40,036 bases of DNA from an uncultured Elusimicrobia bacterium (GTDB taxonomy: Bacteria; Elusimicrobiota; Elusimicrobia; Elusimicrobiales; Elusimicrobiaceae), in contig CAMZGO010000015.1 in NCBI GenBank assembly GCA_947306425.1, positions 1 to 40,036 on the forward strand, written 5' to 3'. The notes beneath the pieces are model-generated. The model worked only from the letters and a program-made list of their open reading frames with translations. It was not told the DNA's origin and searched no databases. Position numbers and translations under genes: made by a program. Positions 2,087 to 39,186 of the stretch are shown piece by piece (within the stretch, counting starts at the first letter, position 1; each line of letters begins with the position of its first letter).

Positions 2087-4181
2087 GGACGATTTAATCC
2101 TTAATTATACGGACGCCGGTTATACTTTAACACCATTAAAAGGTAAAATCCCATTAGTTAAGGATTGGGTTAAAACTGAATATGATCCGTTTTTGTCTCC
2201 GTCAGAGATTAAGGGTAATTATGGAGTAGTTTTACAGGATGATGACATCATAGTAGATGTGGATCCGCGTAACTTTCCAAAGGGAGAGAACTCTTTAGCC
2301 CGTTTAATAGATGATTTAGGGGTAGCAAAATCAGATTTTCTAACCTTTACCGTTAAAACCGGTGGGGGAGGCTTGCACTTGTATTTTAAAAAGCCAAAAG
2401 ATTTTAAAATAAGAGGCGGCTTAAAAGAATATCCGGGCGTAGAATTTAAGACAAAAGGACAACAAATAGTAGGAGCCGGCTCAATACATCCGGACTCTAA
2501 AAAACCTTATGAGGTTAAAAAATGCCCTTTTGCTCCTAAACAGGCCCCTCAAGCATTATTAGATTTAATCAAAAGAGCGGATATAGAACTTGTAACGGAT
2601 AATAGAGAGCCTGTTTATACAGACTCAGAGCAAAACGCTTTAAGATACATCAAATTTTTACAATCTTGCCCTCCGGCTATTGAGGGAGAGGGTGGAGACG
2701 TTTTAACCTTTAAAACGGCTTGCAGAGGTAGAGATTTTGCTTTATCTCCGGCTAAGACGTTTGAGTTAATGGTTGAACATTTTAATCCGAGATGTACTCC
2801 TGTATGGAACATTGAGGATTTAAAGAAAAAAGTTGATAACGCTTATTCATATAATAATGATGTAGTCGGTAAACATACGGCTGAAAGTGATTTTGAAAAG
2901 GTTTTAACTCTTGAGGAGGAGGTTGTAGGGGAACATGAGGAGGAGTTAAAGTGGGATGTTACCCGTAACAATGACATTAAGCCTACAATCCGTAATGTTG
3001 TAAACTATCTTTTATGTAAGGAATATCCGCTATTAGGGATTTTACAGTTTAATGAATTTACAGGGGATATAGTTTTTGTTAAACCGTCTCCATGGCATAA
3101 CGGTAAGAAGTTAGGAACGTGGACGGACTCAGACGCTATACAGTTCAAATATTGGCTATCAAGAGTTAGAGGTTTTAATGTTTCAACGGCATTATGTCAA
3201 GAGGCTATTATTATTGCCGCTGAAAAGTTTAAATATCATCCTGTTAGAGAATATTTAAAATCTCTTGAATGGGACGGGGTTAAAAGAATTGATACATGGT
3301 TGAGCAAATATGCCGGAGTTGAGGATAATCCTTATACGAGAGCCGTAGGATGTAAAACTCTTGTAGGCGCCGTAGCACGTGTATTTAATCCCGGTTGCAA
3401 GTTCGACCAAATGCTTGTACTTGAGGGAGAACAGGGTATAGGTAAAAGTACCTTAATATCAATTTTAGGCGGCAAATGGTATGGAGATGTCTCAATTACG
3501 GATACGGATAAAGATACCATTGACGCCATGAGGGGATGTTGGATAGTTGAAGTCTCCGAAATGGTATGTAGTCGTAAGGTTGAGGCTGATAAATTAAAAT
3601 CATTTTTATCTAAAGCAACGGATAGAGTACGTTTAGCATATCGTAGAAATGCTGAGGATTATCCGAGACAGAGTATTTTTATCGGCACTATCAATCCGGA
3701 GGACAACGGATATTTAAAAGATCCAACGGGTAATAGGAGATTTTGGCCCGTCTATTGTACAAAAATAGATTTTAACGGGTTAAAAGATGATAGAGACCAA
3801 TTATGGGCCGAGGCGGCAAGCAGATATTTTAAGGGCGAAAAATTATTTTTAGATAAAAAAGAAATTCAAGTAATGGCCCATACTGAAACAGAAAAAAGAA
3901 TGTTTAAAGATCCATGGCTTGATGTAATCGAGGAATGGATGAATAAAAAAGATGTTGAGACGGGTAAAGTTCGATATGTTGTAACATCTAAGGAAATTTT
4001 AGAGGAATGTATCGGATTATCTATCAGCCGAGTCGGCCAAAGAGAATTAAGCCGTATCTCAAATATTATGTGTAAAGAGTTAAATTGTGAAAAAGGTAAA
4101 TTCTATCAAGCAAAAACAGGTAAAACAGTTAGAGGTTATCGCAGAAAAACAGTTGATTTAGCAGAATTAGGATTAGAATGA
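2043..4181 (+). CDS. Prim-pol / VapE-type primase-helicase
   Basis: The 712-residue protein joins two replication domains. Residues ~15-190 match the bifunctional primase-polymerase (prim-pol) fold: a DVDPR acidic motif at ~70-75 and GGGGLHLYF at ~107-115, as in AEP primases. Residues ~370-640 match the virulence-associated E (VapE) helicase family, with a Walker A motif GEQGIGKST near 462-470 and a Walker B-like WIVEVSE near 500. It should prime and unwind DNA at the phage origin. The start at 2043 follows AGGGGAAAG and lies inside the previous gene; no later in-frame Met would keep the whole prim-pol domain. Its stop overlaps the helicase start as ATGA. Confidence 0.9.
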   Translation: MQNRELKSICPTLNRDDLILNYTDAGYTLTPLKGKIPLVKDWVKTEYDPFLSPSEIKGNYGVVLQDDDIIVDVDPRNFPKGENSLARLIDDLGVAKSDFLTFTVKTGGGGLHLYFKKPKDFKIRGGLKEYPGVEFKTKGQQIVGAGSIHPDSKKPYEVKKCPFAPKQAPQALLDLIKRADIELVTDNREPVYTDSEQNALRYIKFLQSCPPAIEGEGGDVLTFKTACRGRDFALSPAKTFELMVEHFNPRCTPVWNIEDLKKKVDNAYSYNNDVVGKHTAESDFEKVLTLEEEVVGEHEEELKWDVTRNNDIKPTIRNVVNYLLCKEYPLLGILQFNEFTGDIVFVKPSPWHNGKKLGTWTDSDAIQFKYWLSRVRGFNVSTALCQEAIIIAAEKFKYHPVREYLKSLEWDGVKRIDTWLSKYAGVEDNPYTRAVGCKTLVGAVARVFNPGCKFDQMLVLEGEQGIGKSTLISILGGKWYGDVSITDTDKDTIDAMRGCWIVEVSEMVCSRKVEADKLKSFLSKATDRVRLAYRRNAEDYPRQSIFIGTINPEDNGYLKDPTGNRRFWPVYCTKIDFNGLKDDRDQLWAEAASRYFKGEKLFLDKKEIQVMAHTETEKRMFKDPWLDVIEEWMNKKDVETGKVRYVVTSKEILEECIGLSISRVGQRELSRISNIMCKELNCEKGKFYQAKTGKTVRGYRRKTVDLAELGLE

Positions 4182-5965
4182 GAAAACAGTATAAAGAATA
4201 TCAGAAAACAGGAATTGATTTTTTAACGAGAAAAAGCCGCAGAACTTTTTTACTTGCGGATGATATGGGATTAGGTAAAACCGTAGAGGTAGCCGGAGCA
4301 TTAAATGTTATTAGGCCCAAAAAGGTTTTAATTGTAGCCTTAGCCTCTCTCAAAATAAATTGGATGAGAGAATTAACTACATGGCTTAATTATGATTTTG
4401 AGTGCCAAATTGTTAATAAGACAAAAGATACTATAAGTAAATCGGCTCAAGTTATAATAATCAATTACGATTTAATTATTTATCCGGAAATCTTTAAACA
4501 ATTAAAGGCCCTAAATTTTGATGTATTAGTTATGGATGAGGCTCATTGTCTTTCAAATATGGAGGCAAAGAGGACAAAAAGAATACTCAATAATGAGGGC
4601 TTAGTAAGAAATGCTAAAATCATTTTTGCTTTGACAGGGACTCCGGTACGAAACAGGCCAAAAGATTTTTATGTAATGCTGAAAGTTTTGGCTCCGGAAG
4701 TAATACATCCGTTTTTAGCCTATGAGGAGTATGCTAAGAGATATTGTGCCGCTTATAGAGACTCATACGGAGTATTACAAGATAAGGGAGCCTCAAATAT
4801 TGATGAATTAAGCGAGAGGTTAAAAGATTTTATGTTAAGACGTACAAAAGAGGAAGTATTAAAAGAGTTGCCTCCGGTTATTGAGAAAACTATACCTCTT
4901 GAAATCACTCCGGACATTATTGAGGTTTTGGCTGAGGAGGAAAGTTTACTTGAGGACATGAACGAGTATAGCCCTAATAGTGAATTAGGGGTTATGGCTA
5001 CAATTAGGAGACAATTAGGGGAGGCAAAAGTCCCTCAAGTCATAGAGTATGTTAAAAATATTTTAGCAAAAGAGGATAAAGTTGTTATATTTGCATACCA
5101 TAGAGAAGTTATAAATCAGATACGTAAGGCTCTTTGTGGTTATGGAGTGAGATGTATCCAAGGCGGTATGAACGCTCAATTAAAGCAAATAGAAGTGGAT
5201 TTATTTGTTAATGATCCAAACAGTAGAATTTTTGTAGGACAAATGACGGCCGCCGGTTTTGGAGTGGACGGGCTACAAAAAGTTTCTAATAATGTTGTTT
5301 TTGCTGAGATAGATTGGGTACCCGGAAATATGGATCAAGCGAGGGATAGACTCGTAAGAATAGGCCAAGAGCATACGGTTATTGCTCATTATTTAGTGGC
5401 TCCGGATACATTAGAGGAAAACATGATGAAAAGTGTAATAAATAAGGGTAAGGTCATTACCCGGTTATTGTCGAATACTAAACAACTTAAAAAGGAGGAA
5501 AAAACTATGACAATCGAACAATCACTTGACCGTATCGCAGTAGCATTGGAGGCCATTGTAGCGGCTATCCCTAATGAGGCTCATTGTGGATGTGCAAAAC
5601 CTCAAGAAGTGGCTCCGGCTGAAACACCTAAAAAAGAGGCTCCTAAAAAAGCCGCTAAAAAAGCCGCTCCAAAGCAAGAGGCTCCGGCTGAGCCTGTTCA
5701 ACCGGAAGTAGTTGAGGCAGAAGTTGTACAAGAGGATGATTTAGACTTAGGTTTAGATACTACTCCGGCTGAGCCTGTTAAGACTTATACGGCTGATGAT
5801 GTACGTAGTGCAATTAGTGATTTTATCACATCTTTTGAGGACATTAAAGAGGGTAAAAAAGCCGCTTTAGAAGTTCTTAATCGTTATGGCTACTCAAAAA
5901 TTCCGGAAATAGCAGAAAAAGATTTTGCCGCTATTATTGCTGATGTTTCAAAAGGAGACAAGTAA
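4178..5965 (+). CDS. SNF2-family DNA helicase/translocase fused to a second gene product
   Basis: Residues 1-429 form a superfamily 2 SWI/SNF-type ATPase: Walker A ADDMGLGKT at ~27-35, DEAH at ~120, the TGTP motif, and a C-terminal helicase lobe ending with the motif VI-like QARDRLVRIGQ. Phage proteins of this type are usually about 430-460 residues long. Here the frame runs on to 595. Residues 430-443 translate a copy of the intergenic leader motif and its ribosome binding site. Residues 444-595 are a separate module that starts MTIEQSLDRI and has Ala/Pro/Lys-rich linkers. The codon at 5465-5467 is TTA, where TAA would end the helicase just before the leader. One base change therefore seems to have fused two genes. 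The helicase probably works in replication or recombination; it overlaps the primase by 4 nt. Confidence 0.88.
   Translation: MRKQYKEYQKTGIDFLTRKSRRTFLLADDMGLGKTVEVAGALNVIRPKKVLIVALASLKINWMRELTTWLNYDFECQIVNKTKDTISKSAQVIIINYDLIIYPEIFKQLKALNFDVLVMDEAHCLSNMEAKRTKRILNNEGLVRNAKIIFALTGTPVRNRPKDFYVMLKVLAPEVIHPFLAYEEYAKRYCAAYRDSYGVLQDKGASNIDELSERLKDFMLRRTKEEVLKELPPVIEKTIPLEITPDIIEVLAEEESLLEDMNEYSPNSELGVMATIRRQLGEAKVPQVIEYVKNILAKEDKVVIFAYHREVINQIRKALCGYGVRCIQGGMNAQLKQIEVDLFVNDPNSRIFVGQMTAAGFGVDGLQKVSNNVVFAEIDWVPGNMDQARDRLVRIGQEHTVIAHYLVAPDTLEENMMKSVINKGKVITRLLSNTKQLKKEEKTMTIEQSLDRIAVALEAIVAAIPNEAHCGCAKPQEVAPAETPKKEAPKKAAKKAAPKQEAPAEPVQPEVVEAEVVQEDDLDLGLDTTPAEPVKTYTADDVRSAISDFITSFEDIKEGKKAALEVLNRYGYSKIPEIAEKDFAAIIADVSKGDK
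5467..5480 (+). promoter_or_regulatory. Leader motif copy 2, inside the helicase frame
   Basis: Exact TGTCGAATAC at 5469-5478, followed by AAAGGAGG and an ATG at 5507. It lies inside the open helicase frame. Elsewhere the motif often sits just after a stop codon. Confidence 0.7.
5507..5965 (+). CDS. Internal in-frame gene: Ala/Pro/Lys-linker protein, possibly made separately
   Basis: From the in-frame ATG at 5507 a protein of 152 residues can be made without the helicase. The start has the leader motif, an AAAGGAGG site and normal spacing, so the translation signals of an independent gene are intact. The protein has a short helical start (MTIEQSLDRIAVALEAIVA), a CGC pair, a low-complexity linker with AAKKA-type repeats and EAEVV, and a C-terminal helical domain of about 60 residues (from TYTADDVRSAISDFI). 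I do not recognise the C-terminal fold. It ends one base into the next gene (TAATG). It lies just before the DUF2800 nuclease and ssDNA-binding genes, so a recombination or replication partner role is plausible. Confidence 0.6.
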   Translation: MTIEQSLDRIAVALEAIVAAIPNEAHCGCAKPQEVAPAETPKKEAPKKAAKKAAPKQEAPAEPVQPEVVEAEVVQEDDLDLGLDTTPAEPVKTYTADDVRSAISDFITSFEDIKEGKKAALEVLNRYGYSKIPEIAEKDFAAIIADVSKGDK

Positions 5966-13812: not shown

Positions 13813-14130
13813 CTAAGTAACAGGGTTGATTAACTCTTGTACTTCCTCAACGGTAAAACCTCTAAGGAATAACAAAGCATTAGGATCCTCTCTTAATTCC
13901 TCGAGTATTCTCTTAGTTTCAGCCTCCGGATCCATGCCGTCTTTTTCCTCAACGACTCTGTAATTATCTCCCTCCGGAGCCTCCTCTCCGTCATCCAACT
14001 CTCTAACTCTAAACCAACTAAACCTACTGTCTAAAAGAGTTTGTAGAGCCTGTCTCGTTTCGTTAGGATAATTCTCTATACAGTTGAGATAATCCTGTTT
14101 TGTGTTAAGTTCTTTTGGAAATCCACGCAT
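13813..14130 (-). CDS. In-frame internal gene in the RT C-terminus, possibly made separately
   Basis: The minus-strand ATG ending at 14128 is preceded by AGGAGG with a 5-nt gap, an ideal translation start inside the RT frame. It would give a 105-residue acidic protein beginning MRGFPKELNTKQDYLNCIEN and ending with a helical domain (RGFTVEEVQELINPVT). The sequence resembles short hypothetical proteins found near phage tail-fibre genes, from memory rather than a search. The RT core before it is of normal DGR length, so this looks like a small gene fused in frame to the RT that may still be made by itself. It could be a tail-fibre chaperone or an RT cofactor. Confidence 0.5.
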   Translation of the reverse strand: MRGFPKELNTKQDYLNCIENYPNETRQALQTLLDSRFSWFRVRELDDGEEAPEGDNYRVVEEKDGMDPEAETKRILEELREDPNALLFLRGFTVEEVQELINPVT

Positions 14131-15153
14131 ATTAACCTCCTTTTGTTTTTGTTTTGCGTCTTGTAGTAACTCATCTAATTTTATCAACGTCATTAGATTA
14201 TATGTATCAGCCCACTTGAGCCAACCGTATGTACTTGCTATACTTGAGCAATATGTCTCAAGAGATATTTCTTTATTTGCTAATTGGCCCGGTAATTTTT
14301 TCAGCCGTCTTTTAACACGTTTAGCCGTACTCTTTCGTAACAGAGTATAATCCGGAAAATGTCGATAGCCTAAAAAATCAACGCCTCTACTTGTTTGAAA
14401 TAAATCACACTTGCTCAAAGTTAATTTTAATCTTTCTGCTAAAAACATCTCAATCTTTTTGGCCGCGTCTTTTAAAAATTCTTTATCGTCATGAAATAAA
14501 CAAAAGTCATCACAATATCGGATATAATCTTTTATCCTTAATTCGTGCTTAACAAATTTATCTAATTCATTCATGTACAAATTGCCAAACAGTTGAGAGG
14601 TTAAATTCCCGATAGGAGAGTTAGTCTCTCCCGGAAATGAATAAACAATATCTCTCAAGAGCCATAGAGTATTTTTGCATTTAATTTTACGCTCTAACAG
14701 GCTCATAAGTATATCATGATTTATTGAGGGGTAAAAATGTCTTATATCCCCTTTTAAGCAATATTTATTACGTTTAACAAATTCTTTTGTACGGGTACTG
14801 CCGCTATGTTGTCCTTTACCTTTTCGACAAGCGAAAGAGTCATCAATAAAAGTTTTTTCAAATATCGGCTCAATAATATTAACTAAAGCATGTTGTACAA
14901 TCCTATCCGGAGCAAATGGTAAAATATAGATTGTCCGTTTTTTAGGCTCATAAATAATTTTAGTTGTATATCTTGATGTCTTAAAAGTTTTATTGACTAA
15001 GGCCTCTCTAATTGCTTTTAGATTAGCCTCCTCATTCTTTTCAAATTTTTGTACGCTCTCAAATTTTGAGCGACATCTCCGGGCCTTTTTGTATGCCGAT
15101 TTAATATTTTCCGGATCTATTATTTTGTCCCAAAGATTACCATGTCTTTTCAT
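13813..15153 (-). CDS. DGR reverse transcriptase with C-terminal extension
   Basis: The 446-residue protein is the error-prone reverse transcriptase of a diversity-generating retroelement. RT motifs: a basic N-terminal region, KGDIRHFYPSI at 134-144 (catalytic Asp136), PIGNLTSQ at 180-187, and YCDD at 213-216 (Asp215, Asp216). The PIGNLTSQ form, ending SQ where other RTs have SP, is the signature of the DGR clade. The core ends near residue 340. Residues 342-446 are an acidic extension (EELREDPNALLFLRGFTVEE near the end) with its own internal start site (see 13813-14130). The RT copies the template repeat RNA at 15298-15409, misincorporating at adenines, to rewrite the tail fibre gene. No recognisable Avd gene lies between the template and the RT. 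Confidence 0.95.
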   Translation of the reverse strand: MKRHGNLWDKIIDPENIKSAYKKARRCRSKFESVQKFEKNEEANLKAIREALVNKTFKTSRYTTKIIYEPKKRTIYILPFAPDRIVQHALVNIIEPIFEKTFIDDSFACRKGKGQHSGSTRTKEFVKRNKYCLKGDIRHFYPSINHDILMSLLERKIKCKNTLWLLRDIVYSFPGETNSPIGNLTSQLFGNLYMNELDKFVKHELRIKDYIRYCDDFCLFHDDKEFLKDAAKKIEMFLAERLKLTLSKCDLFQTSRGVDFLGYRHFPDYTLLRKSTAKRVKRRLKKLPGQLANKEISLETYCSSIASTYGWLKWADTYNLMTLIKLDELLQDAKQKQKEVNMRGFPKELNTKQDYLNCIENYPNETRQALQTLLDSRFSWFRVRELDDGEEAPEGDNYRVVEEKDGMDPEAETKRILEELREDPNALLFLRGFTVEEVQELINPVT

Positions 15154-29261: not shown

Positions 29262-29271
29262 GTATTCGACA
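29262..29271 (-). promoter_or_regulatory. Leader motif copy 7 before the capsid gene
   Basis: Exact TGTCGAATAC on the minus strand followed by TTAAAC, 38 nt before the capsid ATG and about 110 nt downstream of the capsid promoter. This copy shows that the motif is a leader element and not a fixed part of the promoter. Confidence 0.75.
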
Positions 29272-29375
29272 ATCGGTTTCGCTACCCGTTAAACGGACGT
29301 TACCTCACAAGATACTGCTTGTGTTACAGGATAACATTTTTTATCATCAAACGGACCTAATATGGCTACCCGTTG
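29272..29375 (-). promoter_or_regulatory. Structured 5' leader of the capsid mRNA, possible RNA switch
   Basis: On the minus strand the leader holds AACGGGTAGC twice (29374-29365 and 29290-29281) and GTCCGTTT twice (29356-29349 and 29298-29291), in mirrored order around a stem-loop (29335-29299) with CACAAG/CTTGTG and GTTA-CC/GG-TAAC pairs. The CCGTT and AACGG blocks can pair within each copy or across the stem-loop, giving two exclusive folds. Confidence 0.5.
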
Positions 29376-35680: not shown

Positions 35681-35690
35681 GTATTCGACA
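35681..35690 (-). promoter_or_regulatory. Leader motif copy 8
   Basis: Exact TGTCGAATAC on the minus strand, 15 nt downstream of the late promoter -10, so near the 5' end of the terminase transcript; 135 nt before the first ATG. Confidence 0.7.
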
Positions 35691-36995: not shown

Positions 36996-37009
36996 ATTGT
37001 CGAATACTC
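36996..37009 (+). promoter_or_regulatory. Leader motif copy 9, orphan
   Basis: ATTGTCGAATACTCAAACAA followed by AAGGAG at 37018-37023, but no start codon at the right distance and only a two-codon frame (ATG at 37050) beyond. It may mark a lost gene or have a non-translational role. Confidence 0.6.
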
Positions 37010-37127
37010 AAACAATCAAGGAGCAAACGCTCACAAGGTCGCCTAAGTATGTATTAACATTATAAACGATATTTAACAAAAGTAAATATCTTATTAAGTA
37101 ATGTTTACATGTACAATTAGGCAAATT

Positions 37128-37521: not shown

Positions 37522-37550
37522 TTGAATAATATTTTTAAATTTGTTATACT
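37522..37550 (+). promoter_or_regulatory. Early rightward promoter
   Basis: TTGAAT (37522-37527), 17-bp spacer, TATACT (37545-37550). It would start the early operon about 23 nt before the ATG at 37580. It is bracketed by operators 2 and 3. Confidence 0.7.
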
Positions 37551-37579: not shown

Positions 37580-37780
37580 ATGAAAAAAGTAAAACAACAG
37601 GAAATTTTAAACATTTTAAAACCTTATAGCATGGAGGTTATAACTCCGGGCGAGGGTTGCAAAGTGATTAAAATTGATGAGTTTTTAAGCGCTTGTATTT
37701 TGAAATACAGGCACCAATTAAGAGCCGTTAATATTAGTTATAGTGTCGAATACTCCAAACAAAATGAAAGCGAGGTTTAA
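37580..37780 (+). CDS. First early gene, 66 residues, unknown
   Basis: The small basic protein begins MKKVKQQEILNILKPYSMEV and has a beta-like centre (ITPGEGCKVIKIDEF) and an ACILKYRHQLRAV helix. As the first gene under the operator-controlled early promoter it occupies a Cro-like position, but I do not see a helix-turn-helix. AAGGCG precedes the ATG by 5 nt. Its last ~12 codons translate a leader motif and the next gene's ribosome binding site; its TAA is one base before the next ATG. Confidence 0.6.
   Translation: MKKVKQQEILNILKPYSMEVITPGEGCKVIKIDEFLSACILKYRHQLRAVNISYSVEYSKQNESEV
37744..37753 (+). promoter_or_regulatory. Leader motif copy 10
   Basis: Exact TGTCGAATAC, inside the end of the 66-residue gene, 28 nt before the ATG at 37782. 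It is followed by a 23-nt block identical to one before the gene at 38396. Confidence 0.7.
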
Positions 37781-37781
37781 A

Positions 37782-38288
37782 ATGGAAAATTCAACAGAAA
37801 ACAAAAACATGTTATCAGTGGACGAACTCAAAGGGGCTATCACTTTAAATTGTGATTATTCCCGCAACTTGTGCGATTATTCCGGTTATTATTATTTATG
37901 TGATGTGATTTCCGAAATTGCCGACAGTAACACAAGTATTTATTATTCAGATATTATTAAATTTATATCTGAAAATGTGGAAAAGGTTAATGACGCAATC
38001 GAGGAAATGGGTTGGGACGGTTGCGGCTCTGATTTGTACAAAGCGGGCCAAATGGCTGAATATTTAGACATAGAGCGCCGTATATATGACGAATTAGACG
38101 AGGCTATGCTAAATTTTTGCTATAACTATATTTTGTATGATTTAGAGATTAAGGAAATTACACCGGAGCAAGAGGACGAAATCGAAAGCCTATGTTATAG
38201 AGTGGATAATAACGCAACTTTAGACACTTTCGAGGACTTTTTAAAAGAGTTATTAACTCCGGAAAATGACGAAACAGAGGAGGATTAA
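37782..38288 (+). CDS. Early acidic protein, antirestriction-like size, unknown
   Basis: The 168-residue, very acidic protein begins MENSTENKNMLSVDELKGAI. It contains several Tyr-rich stretches (CDYSGYYYLCDVISEIADSN), MGWDGCGSDLYKAGQMAEYL, and a Glu-rich end (LKELLTPENDETEED). Highly acidic early phage proteins can mimic DNA, as antirestriction proteins do, but no known motif supports that here. The start at 37782 follows GCGAGG; an in-frame ATG at 37764 would add MKARFK. The hammerhead ribozyme starts 3 nt after the stop codon. Confidence 0.6.
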   Translation: MENSTENKNMLSVDELKGAITLNCDYSRNLCDYSGYYYLCDVISEIADSNTSIYYSDIIKFISENVEKVNDAIEEMGWDGCGSDLYKAGQMAEYLDIERRIYDELDEAMLNFCYNYILYDLEIKEITPEQEDEIESLCYRVDNNATLDTFEDFLKELLTPENDETEED

Positions 38289-38291
38289 AAA

Positions 38292-38360
38292 ATCCGCTGA
38301 TGAGTCTTTGAAAATTAAGACGAAACCGGGGGCGCGGCTCTTATCGTTCCCGGTCCGGAT
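38292..38360 (+). ncRNA. Type I hammerhead ribozyme
   Basis: All core parts are present: helix I ATCCG (38292-38296) with CGGAT (38356-38360); CTGATGA (38297-38303); helix II GTCTT/AAGAC (38304-38308, 38317-38321) with an 8-nt loop; GAAA (38322-38325); helix III CCGGGGGCG/CGTTCCCGG (38326-38334, 38145+200 i.e. 38345-38353, with two G-U pairs); A15.1-U16.1 as 38325/38354; and C17 at 38355. Cleavage should fall between 38355 and 38356. It lies between two early genes, so self-cleavage would split the mRNA. The leader decamer starts at 38360, in the last base of helix I. Confidence 0.92.
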
Positions 38361-38369
38361 GTCGAATAC
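38360..38369 (+). promoter_or_regulatory. Leader motif copy 11, directly after the ribozyme
   Basis: Exact TGTCGAATAC starting 4 nt after the predicted cleavage site, so the cut mRNA would begin CGGATGTCGAATAC. TTAA at 38370-38373 can pair with TTAA at 38285-38288, making this motif an internal loop of a longer helix I. Confidence 0.8.
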
Positions 38370-38395
38370 TTAAACAAATGAAAGCGAGGTTTAAA

Positions 38396-38614
38396 ATGGT
38401 ATTTGAAATTAAAGGCGGACTCAGTACAAAAGAATTTGTACTAACTTATGACAGGGCAAAAGATAAATATTATCTTGACCAAAACGCATACGGGGATATG
38501 TGGACAGACACATTTTATGGAGAATGGGCGCTTGAGGAATATTTGCGCGACCGTTGGCAATTCTCACAAGAGCAAATTAACTCACTTTATGGAAGTATGG
38601 AGGAGGTGGCTTAA
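38396..38614 (+). CDS. 72-residue early protein downstream of the ribozyme
   Basis: The protein begins MVFEIKGGLSTKEFVLTYDR and continues with a YYLDQNAYGDMWTDTFYGEW segment and a helical end (LRDRWQFSQEQINSLYGSME). I know no family. Start: the ATG at 38396 follows GCGAGG; an in-frame ATG at 38378 would add MKARFK, as in the gene at 37782, with the same leader. Its mRNA is expected to have a 5' end made by the hammerhead ribozyme. It is followed after 2 nt by the next gene. Confidence 0.65.
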   Translation: MVFEIKGGLSTKEFVLTYDRAKDKYYLDQNAYGDMWTDTFYGEWALEEYLRDRWQFSQEQINSLYGSMEEVA

Positions 38615-38616
38615 TT

Positions 38617-38961
38617 ATGCAAAAAGATATTATTTTATGCTTATCTCTTGACGGCCTCAAAAATGATATAGACATTGAGGACATAGAGCAAACTTTAATT
38701 AACGATTTTGGTAATTTTTGCAAAATCAGAAAAATAAACTCCGAGAATTTACAAAAGTTTTTTAAACAGTTTGAGAAGTTGGAGGAGCCTTTAGAACAGT
38801 TTAGCGTTAAAGTTGATGACGTAAACAGATTTAAGGACATTAACGAGCCTATAAGCGCGGAGAAGTGGGACTATTTAGACCGCTACTATTTTAAACCGCT
38901 TGAGGATGAACTACAAAAGGCTCAAGAGATTTATTATGATACTTTAATTGAGGAGGAGTAA
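38617..38961 (+). CDS. 114-residue acidic early protein, unknown
   Basis: The protein begins MQKDIILCLSLDGLKNDIDI and is rich in Asp, Glu, Asn and Phe, with a beta-alpha start and long helices (NLQKFFKQFEKLEEPLEQFS, PLEDELQKAQEIYYDTL). No domain is recognised. GGAGGTGGC at the end of the previous gene serves as its ribosome binding site, so the pair is coupled. Its last codons contain the GGAGGAG for the next gene. Confidence 0.65.
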   Translation: MQKDIILCLSLDGLKNDIDIEDIEQTLINDFGNFCKIRKINSENLQKFFKQFEKLEEPLEQFSVKVDDVNRFKDINEPISAEKWDYLDRYYFKPLEDELQKAQEIYYDTLIEEE

Positions 38962-38967
38962 AAAACC

Positions 38968-39102
38968 ATGAATAATATAATTTATTTTAATGAGTTGGCC
39001 CGCTTAATAATGAGGCTAAGGCGTATCAATTTGTCAGATGACGAGATAAAACAAATGTTAGGAATAAACTACAAAGCGGATTTAGATAAATTTTTAAAAT
39101 AA
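38968..39102 (+). CDS. 44-residue small protein, possibly helix-turn-helix
   Basis: A short gene with GAGGAGG 9-10 nt before its ATG. The product MNNIIYFNELARLIMRLRRI has a basic helix, then LSDDEIKQMLGINYKADLDK, whose spacing looks like two short helices with a turn (possible DNA binding). It is too short for a firm call. The tight spacing to its upstream gene and the good ribosome binding site are the main evidence. Confidence 0.5.
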   Translation: MNNIIYFNELARLIMRLRRINLSDDEIKQMLGINYKADLDKFLK

Positions 39103-39111
39103 CCTCGCTAA

Positions 39112-39166
39112 GACAAACGGGGCGCTTGAGGGAAAATGTTTACACCTCAAGCGCTTTCGTTTTGTC
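39112..39166 (+). terminator. Long hairpin, possible attenuator or terminator in the early operon
   Basis: CGCTTGAGG (39123-39131) pairs with CCTCAAGCG (39145-39153), extended by GACAAACG with CGTTTTGTC across an internal loop. The gap 39103-39220 also has TATAAT at 39178-39183 and a leader motif, so transcription may stop and restart here. Confidence 0.6.
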
Positions 39167-39186
39167 CCTGTACGGGTTATAATTTT

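Follow-up and report, generated by a model that had tools for sequence, protein, structure and literature searches.

Hammerhead ribozymes have been known to flank phage genes since 2011, often several at a time; one of the genes so flanked is ardA, an anti-restriction gene (Perreault et al. 2011, PMC3088659). Tandem phage hammerheads flanking ardA are reported there to cleave both in vitro and in E. coli, and long phage transcripts were proposed as the targets which hammerheads process. The role of bacterial and phage hammerheads has been described as an open question (PMC6155905). The hammerhead described here lies in a window of 40,036 nucleotides, the whole of the DNA stretch analysed (contig CAMZGO010000015.1), between two genes of a tailed phage, an ocr-like anti-restriction gene and the early gene orf72. 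The original prediction took this setting to be unusual; hammerheads flanking anti-restriction genes in prophages are already described in PMC3088659. Neither the overlap with a stop codon nor the joined leader was found in the literature searched, whose coverage was partial, a result that does not establish novelty. Papers on ribozymes in Elusimicrobia phages were also sought, and none came up.

Structure and relatives of the hammerhead

A complete type I hammerhead ribozyme was read from the sequence of the forward strand at 38292-38360; its core is intact, and all three helices and C17 are present. The upstream gene ends with a UAA codon at 38286-38288, and helix I (AUCCG/CGGAU, 38292-38296/38356-38360) starts after a gap of three nucleotides, as had been predicted. 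It is followed by the CUGAUGA core (38297-38303), stem II (GUCUU/AAGAC, 38304-38308/38317-38321) with the loop UGAAAAUU, GAA at 38322-38324, which A15.1 at 38325 extends to GAAA, and helix III, whose nine pairs (38326-38334/38345-38353) are closed by A15.1-U16.1 (38325/38354). With U16.1 at 38354 and C17 at 38355, all core nucleotides named in the original prediction are in place and agree with the type I consensus (CUGANGA at 38297-38303, GAAA at 38322-38325, A15.1-U16.1, and H17 at 38355), from which the predicted cleavage site follows as 38355/38356, directly after C17.

From the stop codon onward the minimum-energy fold is exactly this hammerhead, three helices with helix I open (-23.9 kcal/mol). 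When ten or more upstream nucleotides are added, folding of the window sequence gives a competing hairpin, AGGAUUAAAAAAUCC, which sequesters helix I; as a conserved switch this hairpin was ruled out, since the near-identical phage P357 is unable to form it. The strand before helix I is A-rich and conserved among relatives, and may take part in a tertiary contact between a helix I loop and loop II, with which its conservation is compatible without being proof. A further suggestion, that helix I contains an internal loop made by the leader motif discussed below (distal UUAA/UUAA), was rejected, this loop being absent from the minimum-energy fold and not evident in the sister phage P139.

A covariance model was built from 19 other phage loci, one of its rows being P139, with the window excluded. 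It scores 68 bits at 38288-38364 (E 3e-19), and for this reason the hammerhead is not considered a chance match; the rest of the 1.44-Mb assembly holds no other convincing match, the next best reaching 17.4 and 17.2 bits (E 0.13-0.16). In the proposed check against the Rfam covariance models, the best match, RF03152 (RAGATH-1 hammerhead, E 3e-4), is a weak one at 34.2 bits, below the gathering cut-off of 56.3, and no Rfam model exceeded its gathering threshold in the scan of the window hammerhead. Among the scanned stretches carrying this hammerhead, none reached an Rfam hammerhead threshold at its position.

The 29-nt core with stem II was found in 67 viral-contig stretches and 21 genome contigs, with carriers including the crAss-like genera Cacepaovirus and Buhlduvirus. 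In 19 aligned sequences helices I and III vary yet pair, with 98.4% of cells paired and double-sided changes in 68 cells against 19.4 in shuffles, a signal abolished by sliding the partners; stem II is invariant in this alignment only because the search pattern fixed it. When helix III was located first, without using helix I, the first four base pairs of helix I formed in 70 of 81 loci, against a mean of 7.3 with the 3' strands shuffled among loci. The helices are kept by compensatory change among relatives, and it is these relatives which settle that the hammerhead is real; covariance model, fold and pairing agree on the complete type I ribozyme, of a known class, which had been proposed. 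Widening the set to other stem II sequences brought in 104 further matches, at most eight per contig. The exact pattern of hammerhead plus TGTCGAA was too loose and was used for one locus (L091) only. One phage contig (L045) has eight hammerhead matches inside about 4 kb, and a crAss-like Buhlduvirus carries a second hammerhead of 31 bits (L002:1656-1712).

A pattern search of viral contigs for relatives of the ocr-like gene and orf72 confirmed none; the sister phages P357, P139, P342, P345 and P055 were found instead through the terminase and the hammerhead pattern. Proteins of P357 are mostly 90-100% identical to those of the window phage, with a few genes at 33-58%, and the terminases of the other four are about 60-63% identical to that of the window phage. 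The hammerhead stands directly 5' of the orf72 homologue in P357, P342, P345 and P055. The same region of P139 contains three hammerheads, one followed by a gene that leads to orf72, and two after it. The distal part of helix III has different base pairs in the window phage and in P357, and pairing is kept, with the ocr-like and orf72 proteins 94-97% identical (97% for the ocr-like homologue). The gene upstream of the ribozyme varies, being the ocr-like gene in the window, a 56-aa ORF in P357 and others elsewhere. Since a near-identical phage was binned with a Bacteroidales genome and P342 and P345 with Gastranaerophilales, the host is uncertain, and the binning of the window counts as weak evidence for it.

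Gene junctions and the leader motif

The ocr-like gene (37782..38288, forward strand) encodes 168 amino acids (PHROG 2568, E 1.2e-7). Upstream of it and of orf66, a sigma-70-like sequence at 37522..37550 on the same strand (TTGAAT, 17 nucleotides, TATACT, with TG) is a weak candidate for the operon promoter, coming from a consensus scan which found 13 such sites where 8.9 were expected. Downstream of the ribozyme, on the same strand, are the ribosome-binding site GCGAGG (38384-38389) and the ATG (38396) of orf72 (38396..38614); orf114 and an ORF of about 44 codons (38617..39103) would make up the rest of the downstream message. The operon is proposed to end at an inverted repeat read from the sequence at 39108..39167 (forward strand), GCGCTTGAGG...CCTCAAGCGC with a T-rich tail, which resembles a terminator and falls outside the consensus terminator scan, as this takes loops of 8 at most. 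That scan gave no terminator-like site on this strand between the ocr-like gene and orf72 and the spacing is short, and we therefore assume co-transcription of the two genes. Elsewhere in the window, a reverse transcriptase gene (phrog_1423) at 13813-15153 on the reverse strand lies near tail fibre genes, as in a diversity-generating retroelement.

This placement is typical. With ORFs called mechanically throughout, 43 of 72 loci have the stop codon of an upstream ORF of at least 45 codons no more than 8 nt from helix I, for comparison with the 6.4% of all same-strand TAA triplets that close an ORF of that length. In the wider set of related phage hammerheads, 57 of 88 have the stop of an upstream ORF at -14..+7 relative to the core, where random positions give 10% and other CTGATGA sites 20/108; in 22 of these 57 the UGA inside CUGAUGA itself serves as the upstream stop. 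Downstream, no more than 80 nt from the cut, 46 of 69 loci have a start codon with a ribosome-binding site, against 22%; in the wider set the count is 39/88. Phage hammerheads thus commonly touch or overlap the stop of the gene before them and have a ribosome-binding site after them, and the window, where the ribozyme starts 3 nt after the ocr-like gene and 36 nt separate the start of the leader motif from the next ATG, is no exception, contrary to what had been supposed. No single recurring function was found among the downstream and upstream genes, 50 loci each.

The motif in question, TGTCGAATAC, has 12 exact copies, all in the window contig, where 2.05 matches with at most one mismatch were expected, and zero copies in the rest of the 1.44-Mb assembly; it is, as the original prediction had noticed, a repeated leader before other genes of this phage. 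The copy after the ribozyme (38360-38369, forward strand) starts 4 nt 3' of the predicted cut, its first T being the last base of helix I, and the leader of the ocr-like gene, with the motif at 37744..37753 on the forward strand, is nearly identical. Another copy (25259) lies inside a tail gene, and no start is obvious near those at 35690 and 36998. The last of these follows GC-rich inverted repeats in a stretch (36998-37060) with no clear gene, which is kept in P357 and is possibly a small RNA. At 5469-5507 motif, ribosome-binding site and ATG occur within one open frame (4178-5965), in which two genes seem to be fused in frame, since its C-terminal 152 aa match separate PHROG families. All sister phages have a conserved element, which may be structured, ahead of the motif copy that stands before the major capsid gene: CCGTTnnnCGGGTAGCG (29262-29320, reverse strand, in the window), for which there was no convincing Rfam match.

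In P342, P345, P139 and P055 the motif is mostly TGTCGAACAC. The three P139 hammerheads are followed by TGTCGAACAC, TGTCGAACAT and AGTCGAACAT, all running into GTCGAACAY; the P139 ribozymes run into the motif variant of P139 itself, and the junction is therefore kept while the motif changes. The predicted joining of cut and motif is borne out in the window and recurs in P139. It does not extend to every relative: P342, P345 and P055 have a plain A-rich leader without the motif after the ribozyme, so that two sister lineages keep the ribozyme before orf72 without the motif, and the constant part is the ribozyme and not the junction.

Other self-cleaving ribozymes occupy similar positions. One related contig (L293) has the order pistol, gene, hammerhead, gene, pistol, each ribozyme standing before the leader AAAAAGAAAAGGAA or nearly so, and the leaders being nearly alike around AAAAGAAAAGGAA. 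A pistol (L333), a twister-P5 (L299) and type II hammerheads (L294, L280) were found about 1 kb or less from a hammerhead on the same strand. Two further hammerhead-like sequences, which differ in stem II sequence, precede the same leader in L293 (1400-1980, reverse strand).

Proposed role and alternatives

We consider it likely that the ribozyme acts in cis as gene punctuation, cutting a co-transcribed early message between the ocr-like gene and orf72. Cleavage at 38355/38356 would leave an upstream fragment ending in the GC-rich hairpin of helix III with a 2',3'-cyclic phosphate, by analogy with the general hammerhead reaction, and a downstream fragment starting 5'-OH-CGGA-UGUCGAAUAC, with almost the same leader as the other genes of the phage, after which the ribosome-binding site of orf72 would follow. 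The neighbouring genes would gain separate message ends without host nuclease, promoter or terminator. Of the idea that the ribozyme separates the stability or dosage of two messages, the separation is a likely effect; a consequence for stability or dosage is something we infer, as we do cleavage in cells. The occurrence of unrelated ribozymes at the same kind of junction argues that cutting is the function, and the consistent placement, together with the exchange of unrelated classes at successive junctions in one phage, points to cleavage as the selected function.

A second explanation, possible but doubtful in our estimate, makes the motif a phage promoter or transcript start for orf72, the ribozyme mainly trimming upstream read-through RNA so that 5' ends match. 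The motif stands before genes on both strands and, within the assembly, is confined to this contig; from one phage to another its copies change in concert, and it is therefore probably read by a factor acting in trans. Of 41 non-redundant copies, 6 have a TATAAT-like hexamer that ends 5 nt upstream of the motif, where other distances give about 0.6; this spacing would put some transcript starts at the motif. These six copies, however, represent only a few orthologous gene groups. The motif copies at hammerheads lack a -10 hexamer at this spacing, and at -1 they have A in place of the usual T; a scan of the ORFs turned up no phage RNA polymerase among those covered.

The closeness of the stop codon, 3 nt before helix I here, within 8 nt in 43/72 relatives and inside the core in 22/88 others, could also mean that translation gates cleavage, with the ribosome which ends the ocr-like gene covering helix I and only ribosome-free messages being cut. 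We regard this as unlikely, as compact phage genomes would place stops in the same way even if nothing were regulated, and the UAA may have been retained because folding requires it in a loop. That the element is a remnant, decayed or mobile, which no longer has a role would fit a core which occurs in many unrelated phages, and so spreads, and scores below the Rfam thresholds; it is very improbable given that pairing is kept under sequence change, even between the near-identical window phage and P357, and that diverged phages still have the ribozyme in front of orf72.

Under the punctuation reading, gut phage hammerheads at the stop of a first gene probably cut one long message into separate ones. 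To a wider generalisation we give an even chance: that in many tailed phages the early operons are punctuated by self-cleaving ribozymes that can replace one another, abutting or overlapping the previous stop and leaving a common 5' leader on the next message, without protein factors.

Comparison with described ribozymes

The prophage hammerheads of Perreault et al. (PMC3088659) lie between phage genes, as here, and in both cases an anti-restriction gene is adjacent, although ardA and the ocr-like gene belong to different gene families; the overlap with the stop codon and the junction to a phage-wide leader, seen here, are not described in the accessible part of that paper. RAGATH-1 (RF03152) and the window ribozyme are alike in type I layout, core and A-rich strand 5' of helix I, and differ in stem II and spacing. 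The stem II subclass of the window scores below the Rfam thresholds. In related contigs, pistol and twister ribozymes of phages sit at junctions of this kind, those of L293 with nearly the same leader, and have unrelated folds. The HDV-like theta ribozymes of gut phages (PMC10879173) are likewise small, self-cleaving and tied to RNA processing, but are of a different class and associated with suppressor tRNAs, unlike the window hammerhead. To these systems the window adds a phage-wide leader motif; the ribozymes of a sister phage are followed by it too, in the variant which belongs to that phage.
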